In this document: positions 6,319 through 18,060 of the stretch, piece after piece | How the letters are laid out: every line of letters begins with the position of its first letter | How positions within the stretch are numbered: position 1 is the stretch's first letter | Origin: Rhodobacter sp. SY28-1 | GTDB lineage: Bacteria; Pseudomonadota; Alphaproteobacteria; Rhodobacterales; Rhodobacteraceae | DNA length: 64,000 bases | Direction: 5' to 3' | Assembly (NCBI RefSeq): GCF_005222785.1 | Contig: NZ_STGH01000002.1 | Span: 868,001-932,000, forward strand | Position numbers and translations under genes: made by a program | The notes under the pieces: generated by a model | What the model was told of the DNA's origin: nothing | Database searches by the model: none | What the model saw: only the letters and a program-made list of their open reading frames with translations

Positions 6319-7950
6319 ATGCGCGCCCTGATTGCCGCCCTGCTTGCCACCACCGCCCTGCCCGCCTTCGCCGACACGATCGCGGCGACCAGCCGGATCA
6401 CCGCCGTCACCGTCTATCCCGATGGCGCGAAGCTGACGCGGGAGGTGACCTTCACAGCCCCTGCAGCGGGGGCGCATGAGCTTCTGGTCACCGACCTGCC
6501 GCTGGAGAGTGACGCGGGGATGATCCGCCTTGCCCCGTCCGAGGGGTTGCAGGTGGGCGCCTTCGCCCTGCGCGCCGACCGGCTGCCCCCGCGTGAAGAC
6601 CCGTTGACCGAGGACCAGATCGCCGCCAAGGCCGCGGTCGAGGCGGCACAGGCCTCCGCCGACCGGGCGCAGCTGGCGCTGGAGGCGGTCACCGCCAAGG
6701 TCGAGGCAGCAGAGGCGCAGGTGCGGTTCCTGTCGTCGTTCAGTGGCGCGCTGCCGGATGGGGCGACACCGGAGACGATCAAGGCGATGGCCGGGATGAT
6801 CGGGGCCGAGACTCTGGCCGCCCGGCAGGTGGCGCTGGCCGCAAAGGCCGAGCTTCCCCCGGCGCAGAAGGTGGTGACCGAGGCGCAGGAGGCCTTGGCC
6901 AAGGCGCAATCCGCCTATGATGCCCTGCCATCTGCAGACATGGAGTACACCGCGCTGTCGGTCGCGGTGACGGCCGCCGAGGCGGGGGAAGAAACCGTGA
7001 CGATCACCCAATATGTCGGCAATGCCAGCTGGCAGCCGGTCTATGACCTGAACCTGACCCGCAAGGATGGTGACACGCTGACCCTCAACCGGTCGGTCCT
7101 GGTCACCCAGTATACGGGAGAGGATTGGGACGGGGTGGCGCTGACGCTGTCCTCCTCGCGCCCGTCTGAACAGGCCGCGCCGTCACAGCTTTGGCCGCAA
7201 CTGCGGAGTATCGGGCCGGAAGTGGATGCCGAGGAGCTGTATCGGAAGTCAATGTCTGCATCCGACAAGGCTATGCTGGAGGAACCCGTCGCGGAAGCGG
7301 CCCCTGCCAGCATCGTTGCCGGGGTCGCGATGGAGGGCGACACTGTCGTCTACCAGTACCCGGAACTGGTCACTGTCGCGACGGGGGCCGAGAACCTGCG
7401 CCTGGCACTGGACAGCCTTGAGTTCTCCCCCGTGGTGGAAGCCGTCGCTGTCCCGCGTCTGGACAAGACCGCCTATGTCACCGCCAGCTTCACCAATGCC
7501 AGCGACGAACCTCTGCTTCCCGGGCAAGCGATGCTGTTCCGCGAGGGGGTGCTTGTCGGGTCCACCTGGCTGGACGTGATCGCGCCGGGGGTGGAGACGG
7601 ATGTGGGCTTCGGCGCCATCGAGACGCTGACCGTCAAACGCGAGATGCCGAAGCGGGCGGGGGGCGAGACGGGGGTGTTCACCACGGCCAACCAGCAGAT
7701 CGAAAGTGCGGTCATCACGGTGGAGAATACCGGGACCGAGGCCTGGCCGGTCCGCATCCTGGACCAGGTGCCCTACAGTGAGCAGGACGATCTGGAGATC
7801 GAGGTCTCGGCCAGCCCCGAAGCCACAGAGACCGATGTCGACGGCCAGCGTGGCATCCTGGCCTGGGAGTTCGACCTGCCCGCCGGGGGCAAGGAGACGA
7901 TCACTCTGGAACACACGCTGACCTGGCCCGAGGGCATGATCCTGCAGTGA
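6319..7950 (+). CDS. MuiA-like protein (DUF4140 + DUF4139)
   Basis: Exported protein of 543 residues. The start ATG at 6319 opens a signal peptide (MRALIAALLATTALPAFA). The mature N-terminus ITAVTVYPDGAKLTREVTF is the DUF4140 signature; residues about 95-210 are Ala/Glu-rich and probably coiled coil; the rest (YVGNASWQPVYDLNL onward) is DUF4139. Such proteins are named after a mucoidy inhibitor, but their molecular role is not established. A periplasmic or surface location is inferred. A GC-rich terminator follows. A frame open from 6175 exists, but the signal peptide fixes the start. Confidence 0.85.
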   Translation: MRALIAALLATTALPAFADTIAATSRITAVTVYPDGAKLTREVTFTAPAAGAHELLVTDLPLESDAGMIRLAPSEGLQVGAFALRADRLPPREDPLTEDQIAAKAAVEAAQASADRAQLALEAVTAKVEAAEAQVRFLSSFSGALPDGATPETIKAMAGMIGAETLAARQVALAAKAELPPAQKVVTEAQEALAKAQSAYDALPSADMEYTALSVAVTAAEAGEETVTITQYVGNASWQPVYDLNLTRKDGDTLTLNRSVLVTQYTGEDWDGVALTLSSSRPSEQAAPSQLWPQLRSIGPEVDAEELYRKSMSASDKAMLEEPVAEAAPASIVAGVAMEGDTVVYQYPELVTVATGAENLRLALDSLEFSPVVEAVAVPRLDKTAYVTASFTNASDEPLLPGQAMLFREGVLVGSTWLDVIAPGVETDVGFGAIETLTVKREMPKRAGGETGVFTTANQQIESAVITVENTGTEAWPVRILDQVPYSEQDDLEIEVSASPEATETDVDGQRGILAWEFDLPAGGKETITLEHTLTWPEGMILQ

Positions 7951-8060: not shown

Positions 8061-8090
8061 TGACGTGACGTCACAGTGACGTTAACGTCA
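8061..8090. promoter_or_regulatory. Operator of the MerR-controlled beta-oxidation locus, copy 1
   Basis: Contains the perfect 14-bp palindrome TGACGTTAACGTCA (8077-8090), preceded by a second partly overlapping dyad TGACGTGACGTCA (8061-8073). It lies 75 bases before the MerR gene. The identical 14-mer recurs at 12715-12728. MerR-family LiuR-type regulators of acyl-CoA degradation bind comparable ACGT-containing dyads. The assignment to this MerR is inference from position and duplication. Confidence 0.65.
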
Positions 8091-8164
8091 ACTGCTCTGG
8101 TAATCTTCGGCATGGGTTCGCATCTGCCGGCCAGTTGATGCTTCCCAAATGACGAGTGCGACCG

Positions 8165-8566
8165 ATGACAACCCAAGTACCAAGTGACGTGATGACGATT
8201 CGCGAAATGTGCGAGGCCTATGACGTGACCCCGCGCACCTTGCGGTTCTATGAGGCCAAGGAGCTGCTGACCCCGATCCGGATCGGGACCCGGCGGCTGT
8301 TCACCCGGCGCGACCGGGCGCGGCTGGCGCTGATCCTGCGCGGCAAGCGCTTTGGCTTCAGCCTGGAGGATATCCGGCAGACGCTGGACCTTTACGACCG
8401 CGATGGCGGGCTGACCGCCCAGCGCCAGAAAGCCTATGAGCTGGCGATGACGCGGCTGGCCGAGATGGAGGCCCAGCGCAGTGAGCTGGACGTCGCCATC
8501 GCCGAGCTGAAGGCCGAACTGCAGGACGCCGAGGCCAAGGGCCTGGTGCCCAAGCGCGCGGCCTGA
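8165..8566 (+). CDS. MerR family transcriptional regulator
   Basis: Cytoplasmic regulator of 133 residues. An N-terminal winged HTH (TIREMCEAYDVTPRTLRFYE, about 11-30, then TRRLFTRRDRARL) is followed by a helical dimerisation segment (about 80-125). There is no Cys cluster for metals, so an organic effector such as an acyl-CoA is likely. Start taken at ATG 8165; a GTG at 8156 is in frame. It sits just upstream of the acyl-CoA dehydrogenase, which suggests control of the beta-oxidation genes and of itself through the dyads at 8061-8090. A LiuR/PsrA-like role is inferred, not shown. Confidence 0.85.
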   Translation: MTTQVPSDVMTIREMCEAYDVTPRTLRFYEAKELLTPIRIGTRRLFTRRDRARLALILRGKRFGFSLEDIRQTLDLYDRDGGLTAQRQKAYELAMTRLAEMEAQRSELDVAIAELKAELQDAEAKGLVPKRAA

Positions 8567-8617: not shown

Positions 8618-10390
8618 ATGCCCAGCTATACCGCCCCCGTGAAGGACATGCAGTTCCTGCTGCACGATGTGCTCAAGATCAGCGAGGCCGATATCCCCGG
8701 CTATTCCGACCTTGACCGCAGCTTCACGGAAGCCGTCTTCGACGAGGCGGCCAAGGTAGCTCAGGACATTCTCACCCCCCTGAACGCCACGGGCGACAAG
8801 GAAGGCTGCGTGCTGGAGAACGGCGTGGTGCGCACGCCGAAGGGCTTCAAGGAAGCGTTCCGCACTTTGTCCGAAGGCGGCTGGATGTCGCTGGACGCGC
8901 ACCCGGATTACGGCGGGCAGGGCCTGCCCTACCTGATGCACACTGCGGTGAACGAGACCTTCGTATCGGCCAACATGGCCTTCAACATGTACCAGGGCCT
9001 GACCCACGGTGCCTATTCGGCGATCCTGGTCCACGGGACCGATGAGCAAAAGCAGAAATGGCTGCCGAAGCTGGTCACCGGCGAATGGACCGGGACGATG
9101 AACCTGACCGAGCCGCATTGCGGGACGGACCTTGGCCTTCTTCGCACCAAGGCGGAACCGCAGGCGGACGGGTCCTACCGGATCACCGGGCAGAAGATCT
9201 TCATCTCGGCCGGCGATCACGACATGGCCCCGAATATCGTGCATCTGGTGCTGGCCAAGGCCCCGGGTGGCGGTGAGGGGACCAAGGGGATTTCCCTGTT
9301 CATCGTGCCCAAGTTCCTGGTGAACGAGGATGGCTCGCTGGGTGCCCGCAATGCGGTGTCCGTGGGCAAGATCGAAGAGAAGATGGGCATCCACGGCAAC
9401 GCGACCTGCGTGATGAACTATGACGGGGCGACGGGCTGGCTGCTGGGGGACCTGCACAAGGGCATGAAGGCCATGTTCACGATGATGAACGAGGCCCGGC
9501 TTGGCGTGGCGCTGCAGGGCTATGCGGTGGCCGAGGCGGCGTATCAGAATTCGCTGGCCTATGCGAAGGACCGGCTGCAGGGTCGCGACGTGACGGGGGT
9601 GAAGAACCCCAACGGCCCCGCCGATCCGCTGATCGTCCACCCCGACATCCGTCGCAACCTGATGGAGCAGAAGAGCTTTGTCGAAGGCGCCCGCGCGCTG
9701 ACCTACTGGGGGGCCACGCTGATCGACCGGGCGCATCAGGGCGATGCGGCGGCGGATGGTCTGGTGGGCCTGCTGACCCCCGTGTTGAAGGGGTTCCAGA
9801 CCGACAAGGGCTTCGAGATGGCGGTGCAGGCCCAGCAGGTCTATGGCGGGCACGGCTATATCGAGGAATGGGGCATGTCGCAGTTCGCCCGCGATGCCCG
9901 GATCGCGATGATCTACGAAGGTGCCAACGGCGTGCAGGCGCTGGATCTGGTGGGCCGAAAGCTCGCCACGGACGGCGGCAAGCATGTCATGGCGTTCTTC
10001 GAGATGGTGAAGGCCGAGTGCAAGGCGCATGACGGCGACGAGCGGATGAAGGGTTTTGTCGAGCCGCTGAAGGCCGCGTCCAAGGCCTTGCAGCAGGCGG
10101 GGATGTTCTTCATGCAGAACGGCATGAAGAACCCCAACGCGGCGCTGGCCGGGTCCTATGACTTCATGCACATGATGGGCCATGTCTGCCTGGGCCTGAT
10201 GTGGACCCGGATGGCGAAGGCCGCCTACGAGGCGCTGGATGCGGGCGCGCAGGACCGCGACTTCTTCGAGGCGAAGATCGCCACCGGGCGTTTCTACATG
10301 GCCCGCCAGCTGCCTGCCTGTTCCATGCACCTTGCGCGGATCGAAAGTGGAGCCGAGACGGTCATGGCACTTCCTGCCGAGGCGTTCTAG
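8618..10390 (+). CDS. Acyl-CoA dehydrogenase, long (DmdC-like/FadE-like) family
   Basis: FAD enzyme introducing the C2-C3 double bond in an acyl-CoA. At 590 residues it is the long form with an extra C-terminal domain. Start ATG 8618 after AGAGGAG. The opening [20 protein letters not shown] is typical of this group. Central FAD/substrate segments [14 protein letters not shown] and KIFISAGDH are present. The catalytic base is Glu434 in [15 protein letters not shown]. Members are annotated either as general acyl-CoA dehydrogenases or as DmdC (3-methylmercaptopropionyl-CoA dehydrogenase); sequence alone does not settle which. Thiolase and FadB neighbours favour fatty-acid beta-oxidation. Confidence 0.93.
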
Positions 10391-10468
10391 GCTTCAACCC
10401 GATGGCGGGCCTGACGGGGAAACGCCCCGCAGGCCTGGCCCATGGTTCCGGCTTTCGGGGAGGAAGGC

Positions 10469-11101
10469 ATGAAGCTTTACAGTTTTGGCGAAAGCGGCAA
10501 CGCCTACAAATGCGCATTGGCGCTGGAGATGGCAGATCTTGAGTGGGAGCCGGTCTTCGTCGACTTCTTCAAGGGCGAGGCACGGAGCCCGGAGTTCAAG
10601 AAGATCAACGAGATGGGCGAAGTGCCCGTCCTGATCGACGGCGACACCACGCTGACGCAGTCGGGGGTGATCCTGGACTATATCAGCTCCAAGACCGGCA
10701 AGCTGGGCGGTCGGTCGGCGGCGGAACGGCGCGAGGTCCTGCGCTGGCTGTTCTGGGACAACCACAAGCTTTCCACGGCCATCGGCACCACGCGCTTTCT
10801 GATGAACTTCCTGCCGCCGGAGAAGCGGCCCGAAGGCGTGATCCCCTTCATGCAAGGTCGCCTGAAGGCCGCCTATACCGTGCTGAACGACCACCTCGAA
10901 GGCCGGAACTGGGTTGCAGGCGAGGCCGTCACCATCGCCGACCTGTCCTGCTGCGGCTACCTCTACTACCCCGAACCCTTCGGCTTTGACCGCAAGGACT
11001 GGCCCAACATCGACCGCTGGCTGGACCGCATCGCCGCTCTGCCCGGCTGGAAACACCCCTACGACCTGCTGACGCGGGCCTTTCCCCAAGTTTCGCAATG
11101 A
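10469..11101 (+). CDS. Glutathione S-transferase family protein
   Basis: Cytosolic thiol-transfer enzyme of 210 residues. The thioredoxin-like N-terminal domain carries GEVPVLIDGD and TLTQSGVILDYI (glutathione-binding cis-Pro and Gln-Ser motif, about 51-72). The all-alpha C-terminal domain has the N-capping motif AVTIADLSCCGYL. Start ATG 10469 with GGGGAGGAAGG. It lies 78 bases after the acyl-CoA dehydrogenase and one base before the next gene, so it belongs to the same operon. A role in detoxifying reactive acyl or enoyl intermediates is plausible but inferred. Confidence 0.9.
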   Translation: MKLYSFGESGNAYKCALALEMADLEWEPVFVDFFKGEARSPEFKKINEMGEVPVLIDGDTTLTQSGVILDYISSKTGKLGGRSAAERREVLRWLFWDNHKLSTAIGTTRFLMNFLPPEKRPEGVIPFMQGRLKAAYTVLNDHLEGRNWVAGEAVTIADLSCCGYLYYPEPFGFDRKDWPNIDRWLDRIAALPGWKHPYDLLTRAFPQVSQ

Positions 11102-11102
11102 C

Positions 11103-11465
11103 ATGCTTTCTCGCCCCGCCCTTGCAGCCATCGGTGGCTATCAGCGGCACCTCTCGCCGCGCAAAGGCTATTCCTGTGCCTACCGGATCGCGCGTGGCGG
11201 CACAGGCTGCTCGGGCTTTGCCAAGGCTGTCATCTCCGAGGTCGGGCTTCTCCGCGCGATCCCCGCAATTCGCGAACGCTTTGCAGCATGCCGTGACGCT
11301 GCGGAAGAGTTGCGCGAGCGGAAGCGAAAGAAAGAAAAATGGTACGATCACTGCGGCGCTGGCTGCGACTGCAACCCTGGCTGTGACGTGCTGCCACGTG
11401 GCTGTGGAAAGAAGGCCGATCTGACCCCCGATTGCGACTGCACGCCTGATTGCTGCAGTTTCTGA
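11103..11465 (+). CDS. YidD-like protein with Cys-rich C-terminal tail
   Basis: Small protein of 120 residues. Residues 8-64 (GGYQRHLSPRKGYSCAYR, GTGCSGFAKAVI, RFAAC) resemble the YidD (membrane insertion efficiency factor) core, including its Cys residues at 25, 36 and 63. A charged helix (RERKRKKEK) follows, then an unusual tail with nine Cys in 35 residues: CGAGCDCNPGCDV and PDCDCTPDCCSF share a repeated CDC-x-P-x-C pattern. Start ATG 11103, one base after the GST stop. Metal binding or disulphide formation in the tail is inferred. Placement inside a beta-oxidation operon, not beside rnpA/yidC, is odd for YidD. Confidence 0.65.
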   Translation: MLSRPALAAIGGYQRHLSPRKGYSCAYRIARGGTGCSGFAKAVISEVGLLRAIPAIRERFAACRDAAEELRERKRKKEKWYDHCGAGCDCNPGCDVLPRGCGKKADLTPDCDCTPDCCSF

Positions 11466-11483: not shown

Positions 11484-12695
11484 ATGTCTGACGCCTACAT
11501 CTACGACGCCGTCCGCAGCCCTCGCGGCAAGGGCCGCCCTGATGGGAGCTTGCACGAGCTGACCTCGGTCGCGCTGTCGGCCAAGGTGCTGAACGCGGTG
11601 AAGGAGCGGAACGGGCTGGAGGGCCACGCGGTCGAGGATGTGATCTGGGGGAACGTCACCCAGGTCGGCGAACAGGGCGGGTGCCTTGCGCGGTCGGCGG
11701 TGCTGGCCTCGGACCTGGACGAACGCATTCCGGGGCTGGCGATCAACCGGTTCTGTGCAAGCGGCATGGAGGCGGTGAACCTGGCGGCGAACCAGGTCCG
11801 GGGTGGGGCGGGGCACGCCTATATCGCGGGCGGGGTCGAGATGATGGGGCGGGTCGCGATGGGCTCGGACGGGGCGGCGATTGCCGTCGATCCGGGGCTG
11901 GCGATGAAGACCTACTTCGTGCCGCAGGGGATTTCGGCGGACATCATTGCCACCGAATACGGCTTTACCCGCGATCAGGCTGACGCGCTGGCGATGGAAT
12001 CGCAGCGGCGGGCGGCGGTGGCGTGGCAGGAAGGGCGGTTCGCTAAATCCGTCCTGACCATCAAGGACCAGAACGGCCTGACCATTCTGGACCGCGACGA
12101 ATACATGCGCCCGGGCACCGACATGCAGGCGCTGGGTGCGCTGAAACCGGCCTTCAAGGACATGGGCGAAGTGATGCCCGGCTTCGACAAGGTTGCGATG
12201 ATGAAGTATCCGCATCTGGAGCGGATCAACCACATCCACCACGCCGGAAACTCCAGCGGGATCGTGGACGGGGCGGCGGCCGTGCTGATCGGAGACGAGG
12301 CGTTCGGGAAGGCCCACGGGCTGAAGCCCCGCGCGCGCATCCGGGCGACCGCGAAGATCGGCACCGACCCCACGATCATGCTGACCGGCCCGGTCCCGGC
12401 AACGCAGAAGATCCTGAAGGACAGCGGGCTGCAGATCGGCGACATCGACCTGTTCGAGGTGAACGAGGCCTTTGCCAGCGTGGTGCTGCGGTTCCAGCAG
12501 GCCTTCGACGTCGACCCCGCGCTGGTGAACGTCAACGGCGGGTCGATCGCCATGGGCCACCCGCTTGGCGCGACCGGGGCGATCATCATCGGGACCCTGC
12601 TGGACGAGCTGGAACGGCAGGACAAGGCGATGGGTCTGGCGACACTTTGCATCGCCTCGGGCATGGGCGCGGCAACAATCATCGAGAGGGTCTAG
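11484..12695 (+). CDS. Acetyl-CoA C-acyltransferase (thiolase)
   Basis: Cleaves 3-ketoacyl-CoA with CoA as the last step of a beta-oxidation round. 403 residues, full length. The nucleophile Cys91 lies in INRFCASGMEAV; the C-terminal GGSIAMGHPLGATGA and LCIASGMGAA hold the catalytic His and second Cys. Start ATG 11484 with GAAGGAG. It is transcribed with the acyl-CoA dehydrogenase and likely pairs with the FadB/FadJ-type protein at 15871, giving a complete cycle. The degradative FadA type is favoured over biosynthetic PhaA by this context. Confidence 0.95.
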   Translation: MSDAYIYDAVRSPRGKGRPDGSLHELTSVALSAKVLNAVKERNGLEGHAVEDVIWGNVTQVGEQGGCLARSAVLASDLDERIPGLAINRFCASGMEAVNLAANQVRGGAGHAYIAGGVEMMGRVAMGSDGAAIAVDPGLAMKTYFVPQGISADIIATEYGFTRDQADALAMESQRRAAVAWQEGRFAKSVLTIKDQNGLTILDRDEYMRPGTDMQALGALKPAFKDMGEVMPGFDKVAMMKYPHLERINHIHHAGNSSGIVDGAAAVLIGDEAFGKAHGLKPRARIRATAKIGTDPTIMLTGPVPATQKILKDSGLQIGDIDLFEVNEAFASVVLRFQQAFDVDPALVNVNGGSIAMGHPLGATGAIIIGTLLDELERQDKAMGLATLCIASGMGAATIIERV

Positions 12696-12714
12696 TGACT
12701 GTGTGTGGCAAGGG

Positions 12715-12728
12715 TGACGTTAACGTCA
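12715..12728. promoter_or_regulatory. Operator of the MerR-controlled locus, copy 2
   Basis: Perfect palindrome TGACGTTAACGTCA, identical to 8077-8090, 20 bases after the thiolase stop and 124 bases before the first NTF2-like gene. It marks a second controlled promoter inside the locus and ties the cupin/NTF2 genes to the same regulator. Confidence 0.65.
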
Positions 12729-12851
12729 TGCGGGAAATGCAATGCCGCGTTGATGTCGTTTTCCGGCCACGGCCTGTCGCAAACCTACGTCGCGTGAAGG
12801 GTGATTCTCCCAAGATGGATGCTTCTTCCCGTTGGCCTGAAGGGCATTTCC

Positions 12852-13280
12852 ATGGAGTATTCACATCTGACCGCAGTGCTGCGCAGCCGGGGCGAGTTGC
12901 TCATGTCCGGTCGCATCGAGGAAATGGTTGCCTCGTATGTCTATCCGCTGCCGATCTACATGCAGTCGCGCTGCATGATCCTGCATTCGCCGCTGGACGC
13001 GTATCTGGTGTTCGACATGCTGCGCAAGGCGCTACTGGAGCGTGGTGTGGTCACCTTGCGGCCGCAGGTGAACGCGGTCGAATTGCCGCGCGGCGGTCGC
13101 TTTCGCATCTGGGCCGACTGGCACGAGCTGGCCTTTCCGGTGGAAGAGACCCGCAAGTCCTCGGTTATCTACTATTGCCGCGAGACCGAATTCGGTCCGC
13201 AGGTCGAAATGATCAACTACACGCTCACGTCGATGCCGGAACTGAACCAGCAGTTCGCGGCGCTTGCGCTGACCGCCTGA
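12852..13280 (+). CDS. NTF2/SnoaL-like small protein A of the cupin array
   Basis: Uncharacterised cytoplasmic protein of 142 residues. By eye it matches the pattern of the genes at 13796 and 15423: a helix, then GRIEEMVASYVYPLPIYMQ (equivalent to GDFARYAAQIDLPYLVHTE), then a D-x-x-x-x-F-D helix and L-x-x-x-GV. That layout suggests an NTF2/SnoaL-type alpha+beta cone. No catalytic residue can be named. Start at ATG 12852 with AAGG eight bases upstream. First gene after the second MerR-type operator and 48 bases before the single cupin. Confidence 0.6.
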   Translation: MEYSHLTAVLRSRGELLMSGRIEEMVASYVYPLPIYMQSRCMILHSPLDAYLVFDMLRKALLERGVVTLRPQVNAVELPRGGRFRIWADWHELAFPVEETRKSSVIYYCRETEFGPQVEMINYTLTSMPELNQQFAALALTA

Positions 13281-13328
13281 CGCCGGGGTCGTTCCGGCGG
13301 GGCGCAGCCCAACCGGAGGAAGGCCCCG

Positions 13329-13799
13329 ATGCCCGTTATTGATCCTGCCAAGGTGCCGGTGAAGACCGGCTCGATCTACCCCGAACCTTACGCCAGCATG
13401 ATGCAGGGGCGGTCGTCCCTGCGGCTGGGCGATGCAGGCGGGCTGACCCAGTTCGGGGTGAACCTCGTCAGCCTGGAACCCGGCGCGCTGTCCAGTCTGC
13501 GGCACTGGCACCGGAACGAGGACGAGTTCGTGATGGTGACCGAAGGCGAATGCACGCTGGTGCAGGACGCAAGCGAAACCGTGATGCGCGCGGGCGACTG
13601 CGCGGCGTTTCCGGCAGGGTCGACCGACGGCCACCACTTCATCAACCGCACCGGAGCGGTCGCCCGTTTCCTGGTCATCGGGTCCAGGGCCCCGCGCGAA
13701 GTGGCGACCTATTCCGACGTCGACCTGCGGGTCGAGATCGAGGGCGGGAAGGCCCGCTTTACCTACAAGGACGGCAGCGACTGGACGGGGCCGAGATGA
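13329..13799 (+). CDS. Cupin domain protein (single module)
   Basis: Small beta-barrel protein of 156 residues. Cupin motif 1 reads RHWHRNEDEFVMVTEGE (about 58-74, two His and one Glu as metal ligands); motif 2 reads FPAGSTDGHHFIN (about 96-108, third His). The metal site is therefore complete. Such proteins are dioxygenases, isomerases or sugar/small-molecule binders; the substrate is unknown. Start ATG 13329 with CCGGAGGAAGG. The stop overlaps the next start (ATGA), so it is translationally coupled to NTF2-like B. Its module is related to both halves of the bicupin at 14251. Confidence 0.9.
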   Translation: MPVIDPAKVPVKTGSIYPEPYASMMQGRSSLRLGDAGGLTQFGVNLVSLEPGALSSLRHWHRNEDEFVMVTEGECTLVQDASETVMRAGDCAAFPAGSTDGHHFINRTGAVARFLVIGSRAPREVATYSDVDLRVEIEGGKARFTYKDGSDWTGPR

Positions 13800-14254
13800 A
13801 CCCGCTGTCGATCTATCAGGATGCGCTGAACGTGGTCTCGGACGCCGTGATCGCGGGTGACTTTGCCCGCTATGCGGCGCAGATCGACCTGCCTTACCTA
13901 GTGCATACCGAAACCGCACGGCTTCTGGTGTCGACGGTGGACGACCTGCGGCCGACCTTCGACGCCCTGCACCTGACCCTGCTAGACAAGGGGGTCACGC
14001 ATTACGAACGCGTGGCTCGCGCGGCGGATTACGTCGACCGCGACCGGATCGAAGGCTGGCATCACACGCATCTCATTTCCCATGGCGAGCGGCTGAACCT
14101 GCCGCATTCCTCGCGACATGCCCTGGTCCGCCGGGATGGCATGTGGCTGTTCTCAGAGGCGCACTACGCGATCCAGGCCGAGCGGTGGCCGGTGACCCGT
14201 GAGGTTCTGGAAGCCCAGTTCGGCCTGACCCGGCGCGAGGGGTTGAGTGCATGA
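13796..14254 (+). CDS. NTF2/SnoaL-like small protein B of the cupin array
   Basis: Uncharacterised protein of 152 residues with the same pattern as its neighbours at 12852 and 15423: AVIAGDFARYAAQIDLPYLV, a VSTVDDLRPTFDA helix, KGVTHYER, then DRIEGWHHTHLISHGERL. Conserved Asp/His/Arg positions could line a cavity, as in SnoaL-like enzymes, but this is inference. Its start overlaps the cupin stop and its stop overlaps the bicupin start, both by ATGA, which implies tightly matched synthesis with both cupins. Confidence 0.65.
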   Translation: MNPLSIYQDALNVVSDAVIAGDFARYAAQIDLPYLVHTETARLLVSTVDDLRPTFDALHLTLLDKGVTHYERVARAADYVDRDRIEGWHHTHLISHGERLNLPHSSRHALVRRDGMWLFSEAHYAIQAERWPVTREVLEAQFGLTRREGLSA

Positions 14255-15231
14255 TCGTCGATCCCGCCTTGGCGCCCACCAGTGGCGAGAAGGGCCTGCG
14301 TACCCTGCACCTGTCGGTCGCGGGCGGGCTGACGCAGTTTGGCGCCTATCTCGACACGCTGGACCCGGGCGCATGGTCCAGCCAACGGCACTGGCATTCG
14401 GCCGAGGACGAGTTCCTCTACCTTTTGTCCGGGACGGCGACCTTGCGCGATGACAACGGAATGACCGACCTCAACCCCGGCGATGCCGTTGCCTGGCGGC
14501 ATGGCGATCCAAACGGGCATCACCTGACCAACCGGGGCGATGTGCCCGCCCGCTGGCTGATCGTGGGGTCGCGCGCAAAGGGAGACATCTGCACCTATCC
14601 CGACAAGGACCGCCGCCAGATCAACGGCGACAGCGACTGGCGGATCGAGGCGGCGGACGGCACGGTCCTGAAAAGCGGGCCTCTGCCGGCGGAGTTGCTG
14701 AACCTCCGCGCGCCCTGGGGCAAACCGTTCGACGGGACGCCCCGGCCCCATGTCCTGCGCACGGGGTCGGTCCCGGGCGAGGGTCCGCCGCCCGCGTCGC
14801 ACTCGCCCTTCGACACGCTGGGCGACTACATCGCGCATCCCTTGTCCGACGCGGGCGGCCTGACCCAGTTCGGCGCCTTCACCGAAACGCTGATGCCAGG
14901 TGCGCGGTCTGGCCATCGGCATTGGCATTCGGACGAGGATGAATTCTTCTACACCCTTTCCGGCACCGTCACCCTGCACGAAAACGATGGCGCGCATGAC
15001 CTGCCGCCCGGCACCTGCGTCTGCTGGCCGGCCGGAGTGCCCAATGCCCACCAGCTGGAAAACCGCACCTCTGACCCTGTCACCTATTTCGTCGCGGGCT
15101 CGCGCCTGCCCGAGGACGAGGTGACCTACCCCGACATCGACCTGCACTATTCGCGCCGGAACGGGCTTCGCACCTTGTCGCACAAGGATGGAACCCCCTA
15201 TCCCGGCTGGCCCAAGGCGGTGGTCAGATGA
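14251..15231 (+). CDS. Bicupin protein (two cupin modules)
   Basis: 326 residues made of two cupin modules. Module 1: RHWHSAEDEFLYLLSG and GDPNGHHLTN; module 2: RHWHSDEDEFFYTLSG and GVPNAHQLEN. Both keep the metal-ligand His/Glu pattern, and each ends with a similar GSR-(5-7)-TYPD segment. Module 2 and the single cupin at 13329 share GLTQFG just before motif 1, so the three modules descend from one unit. Gentisate dioxygenase or oxalate decarboxylase-type bicupins are alternatives by fold only. Translationally coupled to NTF2-like B; followed by a terminator-like hairpin. Confidence 0.9.
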   Translation: MIVDPALAPTSGEKGLRTLHLSVAGGLTQFGAYLDTLDPGAWSSQRHWHSAEDEFLYLLSGTATLRDDNGMTDLNPGDAVAWRHGDPNGHHLTNRGDVPARWLIVGSRAKGDICTYPDKDRRQINGDSDWRIEAADGTVLKSGPLPAELLNLRAPWGKPFDGTPRPHVLRTGSVPGEGPPPASHSPFDTLGDYIAHPLSDAGGLTQFGAFTETLMPGARSGHRHWHSDEDEFFYTLSGTVTLHENDGAHDLPPGTCVCWPAGVPNAHQLENRTSDPVTYFVAGSRLPEDEVTYPDIDLHYSRRNGLRTLSHKDGTPYPGWPKAVVR

Positions 15232-15374
15232 TGGCGATCAAAGAATTCCGCGATCGTCAAGTCAGGATTTTCGCGGCAGGGTTGAATGAGCCTTGCATTC
15301 CCGCTCCCTTGCGTTGTGCCGCCGGATGTGGTCCGCTTCCAACTCACTCATTGGGACGTGCGCATCTTGCCTTC

Positions 15375-15416
15375 CCCTTTGGTCGGCGAGCTCCTCGCTC
15401 CGGCAAAAGGGTTTTT
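15375..15416 (+). terminator. Hairpin with T-run after the bicupin
   Basis: The arms CCCTTTGGTCGGCGAG (15375-15390) and CTCGCTCCGGCAAAAGGG (15394-15411) pair imperfectly with a 3-base loop, and TTTTT follows (15412-15416). It would end the NTF2-cupin transcript before NTF2-like C. The 190 bases from the bicupin stop to here hold no gene that I can support. Confidence 0.55.
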
Positions 15417-15422
15417 GCTGCT

Positions 15423-15869
15423 ATGTTGGCATCGGAGATACTGCAGAACTTCTTGACTCGCATGGCAAATGCAGTCGTGGCGGGTCGCTTCGACATCTAC
15501 AGCGCCGGCGTCCAACTGCCGTTCACCATCCTGACCTCAGCCGCAAGCCTGAGCGTCACCACCCTCGAAGATCTGGAAGAGGGCTTCGACGAGTTCACGG
15601 AAATGGTGCTGAGCCGCGGCGTCACGAAGATCGTCCAAACGGTCAAGGTTGCAACCTTCGAAAGCAATGACCGCATTGTCGGCATCCATCAGACCAAATT
15701 GATGGATGGGTCCCGCCTTGTCCTGCCTGACTACTATTCGAAGATGTGGATCACCAACTTCGATGGCGTCTGGAAGGCAACAAAAACCCACAACACCACC
15801 AAGGATACGCGTTGGCCGATCTTGCTGACACGACTTGAAACCGAACCATGGCCGCCCGAGGAGCTTTGA
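15423..15869 (+). CDS. NTF2/SnoaL-like small protein C of the cupin array
   Basis: Uncharacterised protein of 148 residues, third member of the local family: AVVAGRFDIYSAGVQLPFTI, a VTTLEDLEEGFDEF helix, SRGVTKIVQ, DRIVGIHQTKLMDGSRLVLP. Its base composition is visibly lower in GC (roughly 50-55% by counting lines) than the cupin genes, which suggests a different history. The frame stays open back to 15228, but that part crosses the terminator hairpin and is not convincing. No clear ribosome site precedes ATG 15423; an internal ATG at 15462 is possible. It ends one base before the FadB start. Confidence 0.6.
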   Translation: MLASEILQNFLTRMANAVVAGRFDIYSAGVQLPFTILTSAASLSVTTLEDLEEGFDEFTEMVLSRGVTKIVQTVKVATFESNDRIVGIHQTKLMDGSRLVLPDYYSKMWITNFDGVWKATKTHNTTKDTRWPILLTRLETEPWPPEEL

Positions 15870-15870
15870 G

Positions 15871-18060
15871 ATGACCGATTTCACCATGACCACCGATGCC
15901 GATGGCGTCGCGACCATCACCTGGGACGTCCAGTCCAAGTCGATGAACGTGATGTCGACCGAAGCATTCCTGGCGCTGAACGGCCTGATCGACCAGGCGC
16001 TGGCCGATGCGGCGGTGAAGGGGATCATCATCACCAGCGGCAAGAAGGATTTCGCCGGGGGGATGGACCTGAACGTCATCGCGCAGATGCGGGCCGGGGG
16101 GGCGCAGGCAATCTTTGACGGCGTGATGCAGATGCACCATGTGCTGCGCAAGATCGAGCGCGCGGGGATGGACCCGAAGACGCTGAAAGGGGCCAAGCCC
16201 ATCGTCGCGGCCCTGCCCGGCACCGCGCTGGGGATCGGGCTGGAACTGCCGCTGTCCTGCCACCGGATCATCGCCGCCGACAACCCGAAGGCCAAGATCG
16301 GCCTGCCCGAGATCATGGTCGGCATCTTCCCGGGCGCTGGCGGCACCACGCGGCTGTCGCGCAAGCTGGGCGCGATGATGGCGGCTCCGTTCCTGCTGGA
16401 AGGCAAGCTTTCCTCGCCCAAGGAAGCCAAGGGCGCCGGGCTGATCGACGAGGTCGTGGCGCCCGAGGACCTGCTCAAGCGCGCGAAGGAATGGGTGCTG
16501 TCGGCCACCGACGCCGATCTGGTCAAGCCCTGGGACCAGAAGGGCTACAAGTTCCCCGGCGGCGCGCCCTATCACCCGGCAGGCTACATGACCTTTGTCG
16601 GCGCCTCGGCCATGGTGCATGGCAAGACGATGGGCGTCTATCCGGCGGCGAAGGCCTTGCTGGCCGCGGTCTATGAAGGGGCACTGGTGCCCTTCGACAC
16701 CGCGCTGAAGATCGAGGCGCGGCATTTCACCAGCGTGCTGATGAACCCATCCTCCAGCGCGATGATCCGCAGCCTGTTCATCAACAAGGAAGCGCTGGAG
16801 AAGGGCGCGAACCGTCCTGCTGCCGCCGACCAGTCGGTGAAGAAGCTGGGCGTCATTGGCGCGGGGATGATGGGGGCGGGGATCGCCTATGTCTCGGCCA
16901 ATGCGGGGATCGAGGTGGTACTGATCGACGCCAGCCAGGAGGCGGCAGATCGCGGCAAGGCGCATTCCGAAGGCATCCTTGACAAGGGCATGAAGCGCGG
17001 GAAGGTGACGGCGGAGAAGAAGGCCGAGGTGCTGGGCCGGATCACCGCGACCACGGATTATGCAGCGCTGGCGGGTGTCGATCTTGTCGTGGAAGCGGTC
17101 TTCGAGGACCCGAAGATCAAGGCTGACGTGACGCACAAGGTCGAGGCGGCGGTGAGTGCGGACTGCATCTATGCGACGAACACCTCCACCCTGCCGATCA
17201 CCGGCCTGGCTGCGGCGTCGAAGCGGCCGGAGCAGTTCATCGGCATCCACTTTTTCAGCCCCGTCGACAAGATGATGCTGGTCGAGATCATTCGCGGCAA
17301 GGCGACGGGCGACAAGGCCGTGGCCAAGGCGCTGGATTTCGTGCGGCAGATCCGGAAGACCCCCATCGTCGTCAACGACGCCCGGTTCTTCTACGCCAAT
17401 CGCTGCATCATCCCCTACATCAACGAAGGCATCCGCATGGTCGCCGAAGGGGTGGAACCCGCGCTGGTCGAGAATGCGGCGAAGCTGGTCGGGATGCCTC
17501 TGGGCCCGCTGCAGCTGGTCGATGAGACCTCGATCGACCTTGGGGTGAAGATCGCCAAGGCGACCAAGGCGGCGATGGGCAAGGACTACCCGGACGAGGC
17601 GGTGGACCATGTGCTGTTCTGGATGGCGGACCAAGGCCGTCTGGGCAAGAAGGGCAACGCGGGGTTCTATGCCTACAGCGACAAGGGCGAGCGTCTGGGC
17701 CTGTGGGAGGGGCTGGACCACAAGTATCCGCTCGACAAGGTGCAGCCCTCGCTGACCGATGTGCAGCATCGCCTCCTGTTCGCGCAGGTTCTGGAGGCGG
17801 TACGGGCTCTGGAAGAGGGCGTGTTGACCGACATCCGCGAGGGGGATGTGGGCGCGATCCTCGGCTGGGGCTTCGCGCCGTGGTCGGGCGGGCCGTTCTC
17901 GTGGCTCGACATCATCGGTGCGGCTCGGGCGGTGGAGATCTGCCGGGGTCTGACCGCCCAGTTCGGCCCGCGATTCCACGCGCCTGCGCTGTTGCGCGAG
18001 ATGGCCGAGAAGGGCGAGACGTTCTACGGCCGGTTCGGCGACGAAAAGGCCGCGGCCTAG
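15871..18060 (+). CDS. Bifunctional enoyl-CoA hydratase / 3-hydroxyacyl-CoA dehydrogenase (FadB/FadJ type)
   Basis: Catalyses the hydration and NAD-dependent oxidation steps of beta-oxidation. 729 residues: crotonase domain about 1-300 (oxyanion segments KKDFAGGMDLN and LPGTALGIGLELPLSC, catalytic stretch GLPEIMVGIFPGAGGTTRL), NAD-binding domain with GAGMMG at 330-335, catalytic His460 in GIHFFSPVDKM, and two helical C-terminal HCDH repeats. Start ATG 15871 with GAGGAG. With the acyl-CoA dehydrogenase and thiolase upstream it completes the cycle. fadB or fadJ cannot be chosen by sequence alone. It ends at a perfect 12-bp hairpin. Confidence 0.95.
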   Translation: MTDFTMTTDADGVATITWDVQSKSMNVMSTEAFLALNGLIDQALADAAVKGIIITSGKKDFAGGMDLNVIAQMRAGGAQAIFDGVMQMHHVLRKIERAGMDPKTLKGAKPIVAALPGTALGIGLELPLSCHRIIAADNPKAKIGLPEIMVGIFPGAGGTTRLSRKLGAMMAAPFLLEGKLSSPKEAKGAGLIDEVVAPEDLLKRAKEWVLSATDADLVKPWDQKGYKFPGGAPYHPAGYMTFVGASAMVHGKTMGVYPAAKALLAAVYEGALVPFDTALKIEARHFTSVLMNPSSSAMIRSLFINKEALEKGANRPAAADQSVKKLGVIGAGMMGAGIAYVSANAGIEVVLIDASQEAADRGKAHSEGILDKGMKRGKVTAEKKAEVLGRITATTDYAALAGVDLVVEAVFEDPKIKADVTHKVEAAVSADCIYATNTSTLPITGLAAASKRPEQFIGIHFFSPVDKMMLVEIIRGKATGDKAVAKALDFVRQIRKTPIVVNDARFFYANRCIIPYINEGIRMVAEGVEPALVENAAKLVGMPLGPLQLVDETSIDLGVKIAKATKAAMGKDYPDEAVDHVLFWMADQGRLGKKGNAGFYAYSDKGERLGLWEGLDHKYPLDKVQPSLTDVQHRLLFAQVLEAVRALEEGVLTDIREGDVGAILGWGFAPWSGGPFSWLDIIGAARAVEICRGLTAQFGPRFHAPALLREMAEKGETFYGRFGDEKAAA

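Follow-up and report, generated by a model that had tools for sequence, protein, structure and literature searches.

In Rhodobacteraceae, cupin and NTF2-like modules vary at one position of a MerR-associated operon for acyl-CoA beta-oxidation: a proposed accessory slot

Introduction

What do three small NTF2-like proteins and three cupin modules do between two genes of fatty acid oxidation? In Rhodobacter sp. SY28-1 (Rhodobacteraceae), genes for the NTF2-like proteins A, B and C alternate with a single cupin (cup1) and a bicupin between a thiolase and a fadB/fadJ-type gene. The array lies in a 64,000-nucleotide stretch of DNA (assembly GCF_005222785.1, contig NZ_STGH01000002.1, positions 868,001 to 932,000), here called the window, from a genome of 4.28 Mb. 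Fatty acid oxidation operons are regarded as stable core metabolism. A first-pass annotation of the sequence had proposed that one NTF2-like unit accompanies each cupin module in fixed stoichiometry, and that together they could form a dedicated new pathway. Our comparison of related genomes points elsewhere. The claim it supports best is that, judged by gene content, cupin and NTF2-like modules come and go independently at a fixed operon position. On that basis we take the array for an enlarged version of what, in Rhodobacteraceae, fills a variable accessory slot of a MerR-associated operon for acyl-CoA beta-oxidation. Its products would be dispensable accessory proteins; we give this reading about even credence.

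Results

Cupin and NTF2-like modules occupy one slot independently

Sixty stretches were fetched around cupin or NTF2-like matches. Thiolase and fadB flank the slot in 55 of them and in the window, and these 56 readable loci form our first set; in the remaining five (L083, L095, L098, L099 and L103) neither flanking gene was found, and only off-operon module copies are present. By gene order, merR, acyl-CoA dehydrogenase (ACAD), glutathione S-transferase-like (GST) gene, thiolase, slot and fadB make up an operon that is conserved across Rhodobacteraceae with one variable slot. The GST-thiolase gap has a median of 11 bp (52 loci), and the thiolase-fadB gap ranges from -59 to 3139 bp (56 loci); the lengths were taken from open reading frames, and negative values may reflect the choice of start.

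In the first set, mostly fetched for a cupin match, the slot most often contains one single cupin (30 of 56 loci). Another 60 loci, mainly from genomes in which no cupin matched, brought the readable total to 116 with the window included, and in 34 of these 60 the slot at this position is empty. Cupins only were found in 38 of the 116 loci, NTF2-like genes only in 19, both in 23 and neither in 36 (34 empty slots and two with an unmatched insert); since the two sets were selected in opposite ways, these proportions are not family frequencies. With a single cupin as the commonest filling and so many empty slots, a dedicated pathway, as the first-pass annotation had it, is not needed to account for the array.

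Across 198 genomes of the family, 83 have a cupin match at E ≤ 1e-12, some of them outside the slot. Proteins of the B/C type were detected at E ≤ 0.001 in 61 of the 198, against 5 of 190 genomes of the class (the window's own included), and on this distribution they are a largely family-restricted group. A-type matches occur in 46 of the 198 genomes, and many are weak cross-matches to the B/C type. A fadB match is present in 193 of the 198, and the best 150 of these 193 by fadB score were used for an association test. The 96 B/C-type matches comprise 82 in those 150 genomes (67 in the slot and 15 elsewhere) and 14 in other genomes; of 28 A-type matches of at least 34 bits, 19 are in the slot, six are outside it and three have no assignable place.

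In the best 150 of 193 genomes, both kinds occur in 20, a cupin only in 32, an NTF2-like protein only in 39 and neither in 59 (odds ratio 0.95, p = 1.0, A-type matches counted from 34 bits). When the A type was left out the counts were 16 with both, 36 with a cupin only, 32 with a B/C-type protein only and 66 with neither (p = 0.86). The two other sets gave odds ratios of 1.15 (116 loci, p = 0.85) and 0.82 (78 mostly close loci, p = 0.79). These statistics ignore kinship among genomes. In the 150-genome test, NTF2-like proteins were sought with profiles but cupins with one query sequence and a stringent cut-off, and distant cupins may have been missed for that reason. The two kinds of module thus occur independently, and the proposed one-to-one pairing in fixed stoichiometry is not supported.

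Layouts turn over among close relatives

The 80 named loci, from which we take the family to be Rhodobacteraceae, are those whose fadB matched best (79-95% identity over the top segment); the records that lead the list are mostly of Tabrizicola and Rhodobacter. Together with the window they give 81 loci, of which 78 have a readable slot (all except L180, L213 and L240). We counted 18 layouts in the 78 loci: 27 have both kinds, 33 cupins only, 9 NTF2-like genes only and 9 neither. The window array is one of the fullest versions of the slot and not a self-contained pathway. Its six-module layout is shared with three close relatives, L174, L176 and L186 (Tabrizicola aquatica RCRI19), and the slot measures 3184 bp in L186 and 3179 bp in the window. 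In other close relatives one or another module is missing, and the combinations are many. FastTree trees place each window module in a small clade made up mostly of same-place modules of relatives (support 0.47 to 0.96). This pattern is suggestive of inheritance of the array followed by loss of modules, with weak tree support for some of them.

Two records named Rhodobacter capsulatus differ at this position: SP108 has a slot with a cupin, DSM 1710 has a slot of 15 bp, and their flanks are 93.6-94.1% identical. A same-genus genome (G191, locus L069) has kept the end of a bicupin in degraded form (43% over 68 columns, up to the bicupin's end); a separate C gene is absent there, the C query having matched its B gene.

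Window modules were compared with 12-15 loci each for the ratio of nonsynonymous to synonymous divergence (dN/dS). Medians were 0.13 for cup1, 0.20 and 0.32 for the bicupin halves, 0.28 for B, 0.40 for C and 0.44 for A, the values of the faster modules being rough; the flanks gave 0.09 (thiolase, 14 loci) and 0.11 (fadB, 15 loci).

Genes of the array and of the host operon

The order NTF2-A, cupin, NTF2-B, bicupin, NTF2-C at 12852-15869 is borne out by the reading frames, and Pfam and NCBIfam matches of the neighbours agree with the place that had been assigned to the array, between thiolase and FadB in a beta-oxidation operon (Table 1). The ATGA overlaps described from the cupin to the bicupin are present at 13796 (cupin/B) and 14251 (B/bicupin), and 48 bp separate A from the cupin. 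The first ATG of the C reading frame is at 15228, but its homology with B begins only at 15423, which is for this reason the most likely start.

Table 1. Coordinates in the window of the array, its host operon and the putative operators
Feature	Position	Strand	Basis
NTF2-like protein A	12852..13280	+	AlphaFold2 mean pLDDT 92.2; Foldseek to NTF2/KSI structures
Single cupin (cup1), relative of PDB 3i7d	13329..13799	+	Pfam Cupin_2; 3i7d E 3.7e-53
NTF2-like protein B	13796..14254	+	AlphaFold2 mean pLDDT 89.5; Foldseek
Bicupin, two fused cupin modules	14251..15231	+	Pfam Cupin_2, two stretches; H, H, E, H in both halves
NTF2-like protein C	15423..15869	+	35% identity to B over 137 columns; alignment
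MerR-family regulator gene, outside the array	8156..8566	+	Pfam MerR_1, MerR-DNA-bind
ACAD gene	8618..10390	+	NCBIfam ACAD-type matches, none reaching an equivalog cut-off; also present in relatives' operons
GST gene	10442..11101	+	Pfam GST_N
Thiolase gene, upstream border of the slot	11484..12695	+	Pfam Thiolase_N/C; PRK08242 above cut-off
Gene for a multifunctional protein of the fadB/fadJ type, downstream border of the slot	15871..18060	+	Pfam ECH_1, 3HCDH_N; FadJ/FadB NCBIfam below equivalog cut-offs
Palindrome TGACGTTAACGTCA ahead of merR, probable operator for the MerR-type regulator	8077..8090		Site with at most one mismatch kept in relatives
Second identical palindrome copy, slot start just after thiolase	12715..12728		Relaxed-pattern genome scan

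The three NTF2-like proteins are unequally related

B and C are homologous (35% identity, E 1e-27). In pairwise comparison A matches B weakly (E 9e-4) and C not meaningfully; profile-profile comparison relates it to the B/C group (96.8%, E 2.3e-10), which makes A, on alignment, a remote relative of that group. AlphaFold2 models of B and A reached pTM (predicted template modelling) scores of 0.82 and 0.86 with mean pLDDT (predicted local distance difference test) values of 89.5 and 92.2, and in Foldseek searches both matched solved NTF2-like, ketosteroid isomerase (KSI) and CaMKII-hub structures. The predicted fold of A and B is the NTF2 alpha+beta cone, and homology assigns it to C. The one pattern that the three small proteins had been said to share therefore stands as far as the predicted fold of A and B and the homology of B and C go; A itself is a remote relative.

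Neither A nor B matches a Pfam or NCBIfam family at E ≤ 1, and C gave three sub-threshold, chance-like matches, one to DUF4971 and two to NCBIfam models, the latter two at E 0.1-0.21. Among relatives, 2 of 37 B/C-type proteins match SnoaL_3 (best E 7.1e-5) and 1 of 14 A-type proteins matches DUF6841 (E 0.026). Only M1, D22, P33 and W117 are nearly invariant in the 37 B/C-type proteins, and no SnoaL/KSI-type catalytic set was identified in the NTF2-like alignments.

Reading frames of about 296-322 codons in L077, L085, L102, L146 and L157 span two NTF2-like units; they suggest that two NTF2-like proteins are fused there, a parallel to the bicupin. In L083 (G020 C17), two adjoining NTF2-like genes lie at 6752-7831, with no thiolase or fadB found in that stretch.

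The cupins keep their metal ligands

Cupin_2 (PF07883) matches cup1 with 64.9 bits and the bicupin with 115.4 bits (cut-off 27.2). Motif 1 supplies H-x-H and E, and motif 2 supplies H, in all three window modules, so the complete metal ligands noted at first reading are there. The four ligand positions are kept in 83, 79, 83 and 83 of the 83 cupin modules that score more than 60 bits in fetched loci of the family, copies outside the operon among them, and a motif-2 Asn is kept in all 83. The closest solved structure to cup1 by sequence is PDB 3i7d (residues 1-154, E 3.7e-53).

Three enzyme identities were rejected: dimethylsulfoniopropionate (DMSP) lyase on the count of motif-1 tyrosines (0 in cup1, 1 in each half of the bicupin), oxalate decarboxylase bicupin (TIGR03404) on scores of 22.9 bits (cup1) and 26.8 bits (bicupin) against a cut-off of 254.2, and ureidoglycine aminohydrolase on scores far under the NCBIfam cut-off.

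Outside the family the cupin is common as well: it occurs in 49 of the 190 class genomes, a count that takes in the window's own genome and one further member of the family, and the order thiolase-cupin-fadB occurs in 2 of 11 fetched out-of-family loci (flanks up to 1.5 kb).

A palindrome lies before merR and at the start of the slot

The palindrome TGACGTTAACGTCA occurs exactly twice in the window, and five matches were found with up to three mismatches; none of 100 shuffles reached five. Its relaxed form TKACGTNNACGTMA is present only at 8077 and 12715 in the whole genome. A site with at most one mismatch lies upstream of ACAD in 42 of 45 loci having more than 600 bp upstream; four further such sites occur elsewhere in 719 kb of loci, and three shuffles gave 8, 2 and 0. 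The probable MerR-type operator claimed for the array is the palindrome at 12715-12728, identical to that at 8077-8090.

About 100 bp of leader before A (12740-12850) contain blocks partly conserved among Tabrizicola relatives and are a possible promoter. A structured RNA in the leader at 12693-12860 was rejected (z -0.88).

Other variation in the operon

In several relatives (e.g., L066, L072 and L092) a second, shorter ACAD gene of about 380-390 codons sits between ACAD and GST; the gap there, 41-1782 bp in 49 loci, is variable too on account of this insertion. The GST-thiolase interval of the window holds a YidD-type open reading frame at 11103-11465 (TIGR00278, 66.6 bits against a cut-off of 40; Pfam YidD below cut-off), and phmmer over the 60 fetched loci and the window returned the window's own copy alone.

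Discussion

An accessory slot and its rivals

If the array is a filling of an accessory slot, we propose that the MerR protein binds both palindromes and would switch on operon and slot upon an acyl-CoA or related signal. The cupins would be small enzymes that depend on metal and act on an intermediate or by-product of acyl-CoA oxidation; the NTF2-like proteins would be fast-evolving pocket proteins that bind such compounds or help to turn them over, perhaps lacking conserved catalysis. Each module would be useful in some niches only, and would for that reason be easily lost and duplicated.

Several observations weigh against this proposal. The slot copy of the site was found, with one mismatch, in only 1 of 55 family loci (L068), and among close named relatives only L171 has a one-mismatch site just after thiolase; the slot copy is thus near-private, and joint regulation through the second putative operator would be confined to this species or its close kin. 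Outside the family, thiolase and fadB are absent within 1.5 kb of the cupin in 9 of 11 loci. One of these nine, L261, has an ACAD-like frame; among ten neighbour frames from six of the nine, five of them recognisable, beta-oxidation families are absent. The cupin chemistry may accordingly not be specific to beta-oxidation. Of 82 B/C-type matches, 15 lie outside the slot (best 150 of 193 genomes), and in G191 cup1 is shortened to 130 residues from the window's 156, which suits a neutral alternative. Many dN/dS pairs have a synonymous divergence near or above 1 or are paralogues (identities of about 30%), and the C match of L181 in that set contains a stop; the ratios of the faster modules are rough for these reasons.

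That alternative, a nearly neutral site prone to duplication and deletion whose genes would play no operon-linked role, draws on the high turnover of layouts, on presence and absence between the two R. capsulatus records with their similar flanks, and on the decayed bicupin and short cup1 of G191. We consider it improbable, because dN/dS is below 1, the cupin ligands are nearly invariant and B/C-type proteins are mostly located in the slot. A shade less probable, in our judgement, are slot proteins that act as optional small subunits of the fatty acid oxidation complex, shaping or bridging it, with unrelated folds interchangeable. In 80 of 116 loci the space between thiolase and fadB does hold modules, slots with cupins alone occur as well as slots with NTF2-like proteins alone, and few residues of the B/C type are nearly invariant; but a structural subunit would not need near-invariant metal ligands, many operons have an empty slot, and most out-of-family cupins are without thiolase or fadB neighbours. 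Pairing of each NTF2-like protein with one cupin module, in fixed stoichiometry and in a new acyl or aromatic pathway, would fit the ATGA overlaps and the alternating order of the window and its three close relatives. It is nevertheless very unlikely, given the lack of association in all sets, the 38 cupin-only and 19 NTF2-like-only slots, and the close relatives that do without single modules. The accessory slot is our preferred reading.

These data suggest that (i) an accessory layer of acyl-CoA oxidation differs, at one position, between species and between two R. capsulatus records; and (ii) this variation supplies natural with-and-without pairs for testing. More doubtfully, the position between two catalytic-subunit genes may be a plug-in site, at which cupins and NTF2-like proteins would replace one another as rapidly exchanged subunits, for specificity or as scaffolds, under the operon's regulator. 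Among the matches listed for literature on the slot cupin, the operon and the regulator, titles and abstract openings hold no description of the slot.

Comparison with known systems

The models of A and B share their fold with the NTF2-like/SnoaL/KSI superfamily (SgcJ 4ovm, KSI, CaMKII hub), whereas none of its Pfam or NCBIfam families matched A, B or C of the window above cut-off, and few members of the wider group match any NTF2-like Pfam family.

Cup1 has the same metal-ligand motifs as PDB 3i7d, a single cupin unlike the bicupin; its label 'sugar phosphate isomerase' is the depositors' name and not a tested function. 3i7d is probably SPO2919 of Ruegeria pomeroyi, near SPO2915. The name given to SPO2915 in PMC5395565 is DmdC3. 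PDB 3l2h, a putative sugar phosphate isomerase, shares its cupin type with cup1 and the bicupin but is far more distant from cup1 (E 4.8e-12). The cupin DMSP lyases DddL, DddQ and DddW, as described in the same source, have two His and a Glu followed by a His, and two conserved tyrosines in motif 1 (PMC5395565); the window cupins have similar His/Glu motifs and lack the pair of tyrosines.

LiuR is a MerR-family regulator whose listed role is branched-chain amino acid utilization (PMC5343134). The regulator of the operon described here shares MerR family membership with LiuR, and LiuR-type regulons likewise place a MerR-family regulator beside acyl-CoA degradation genes.

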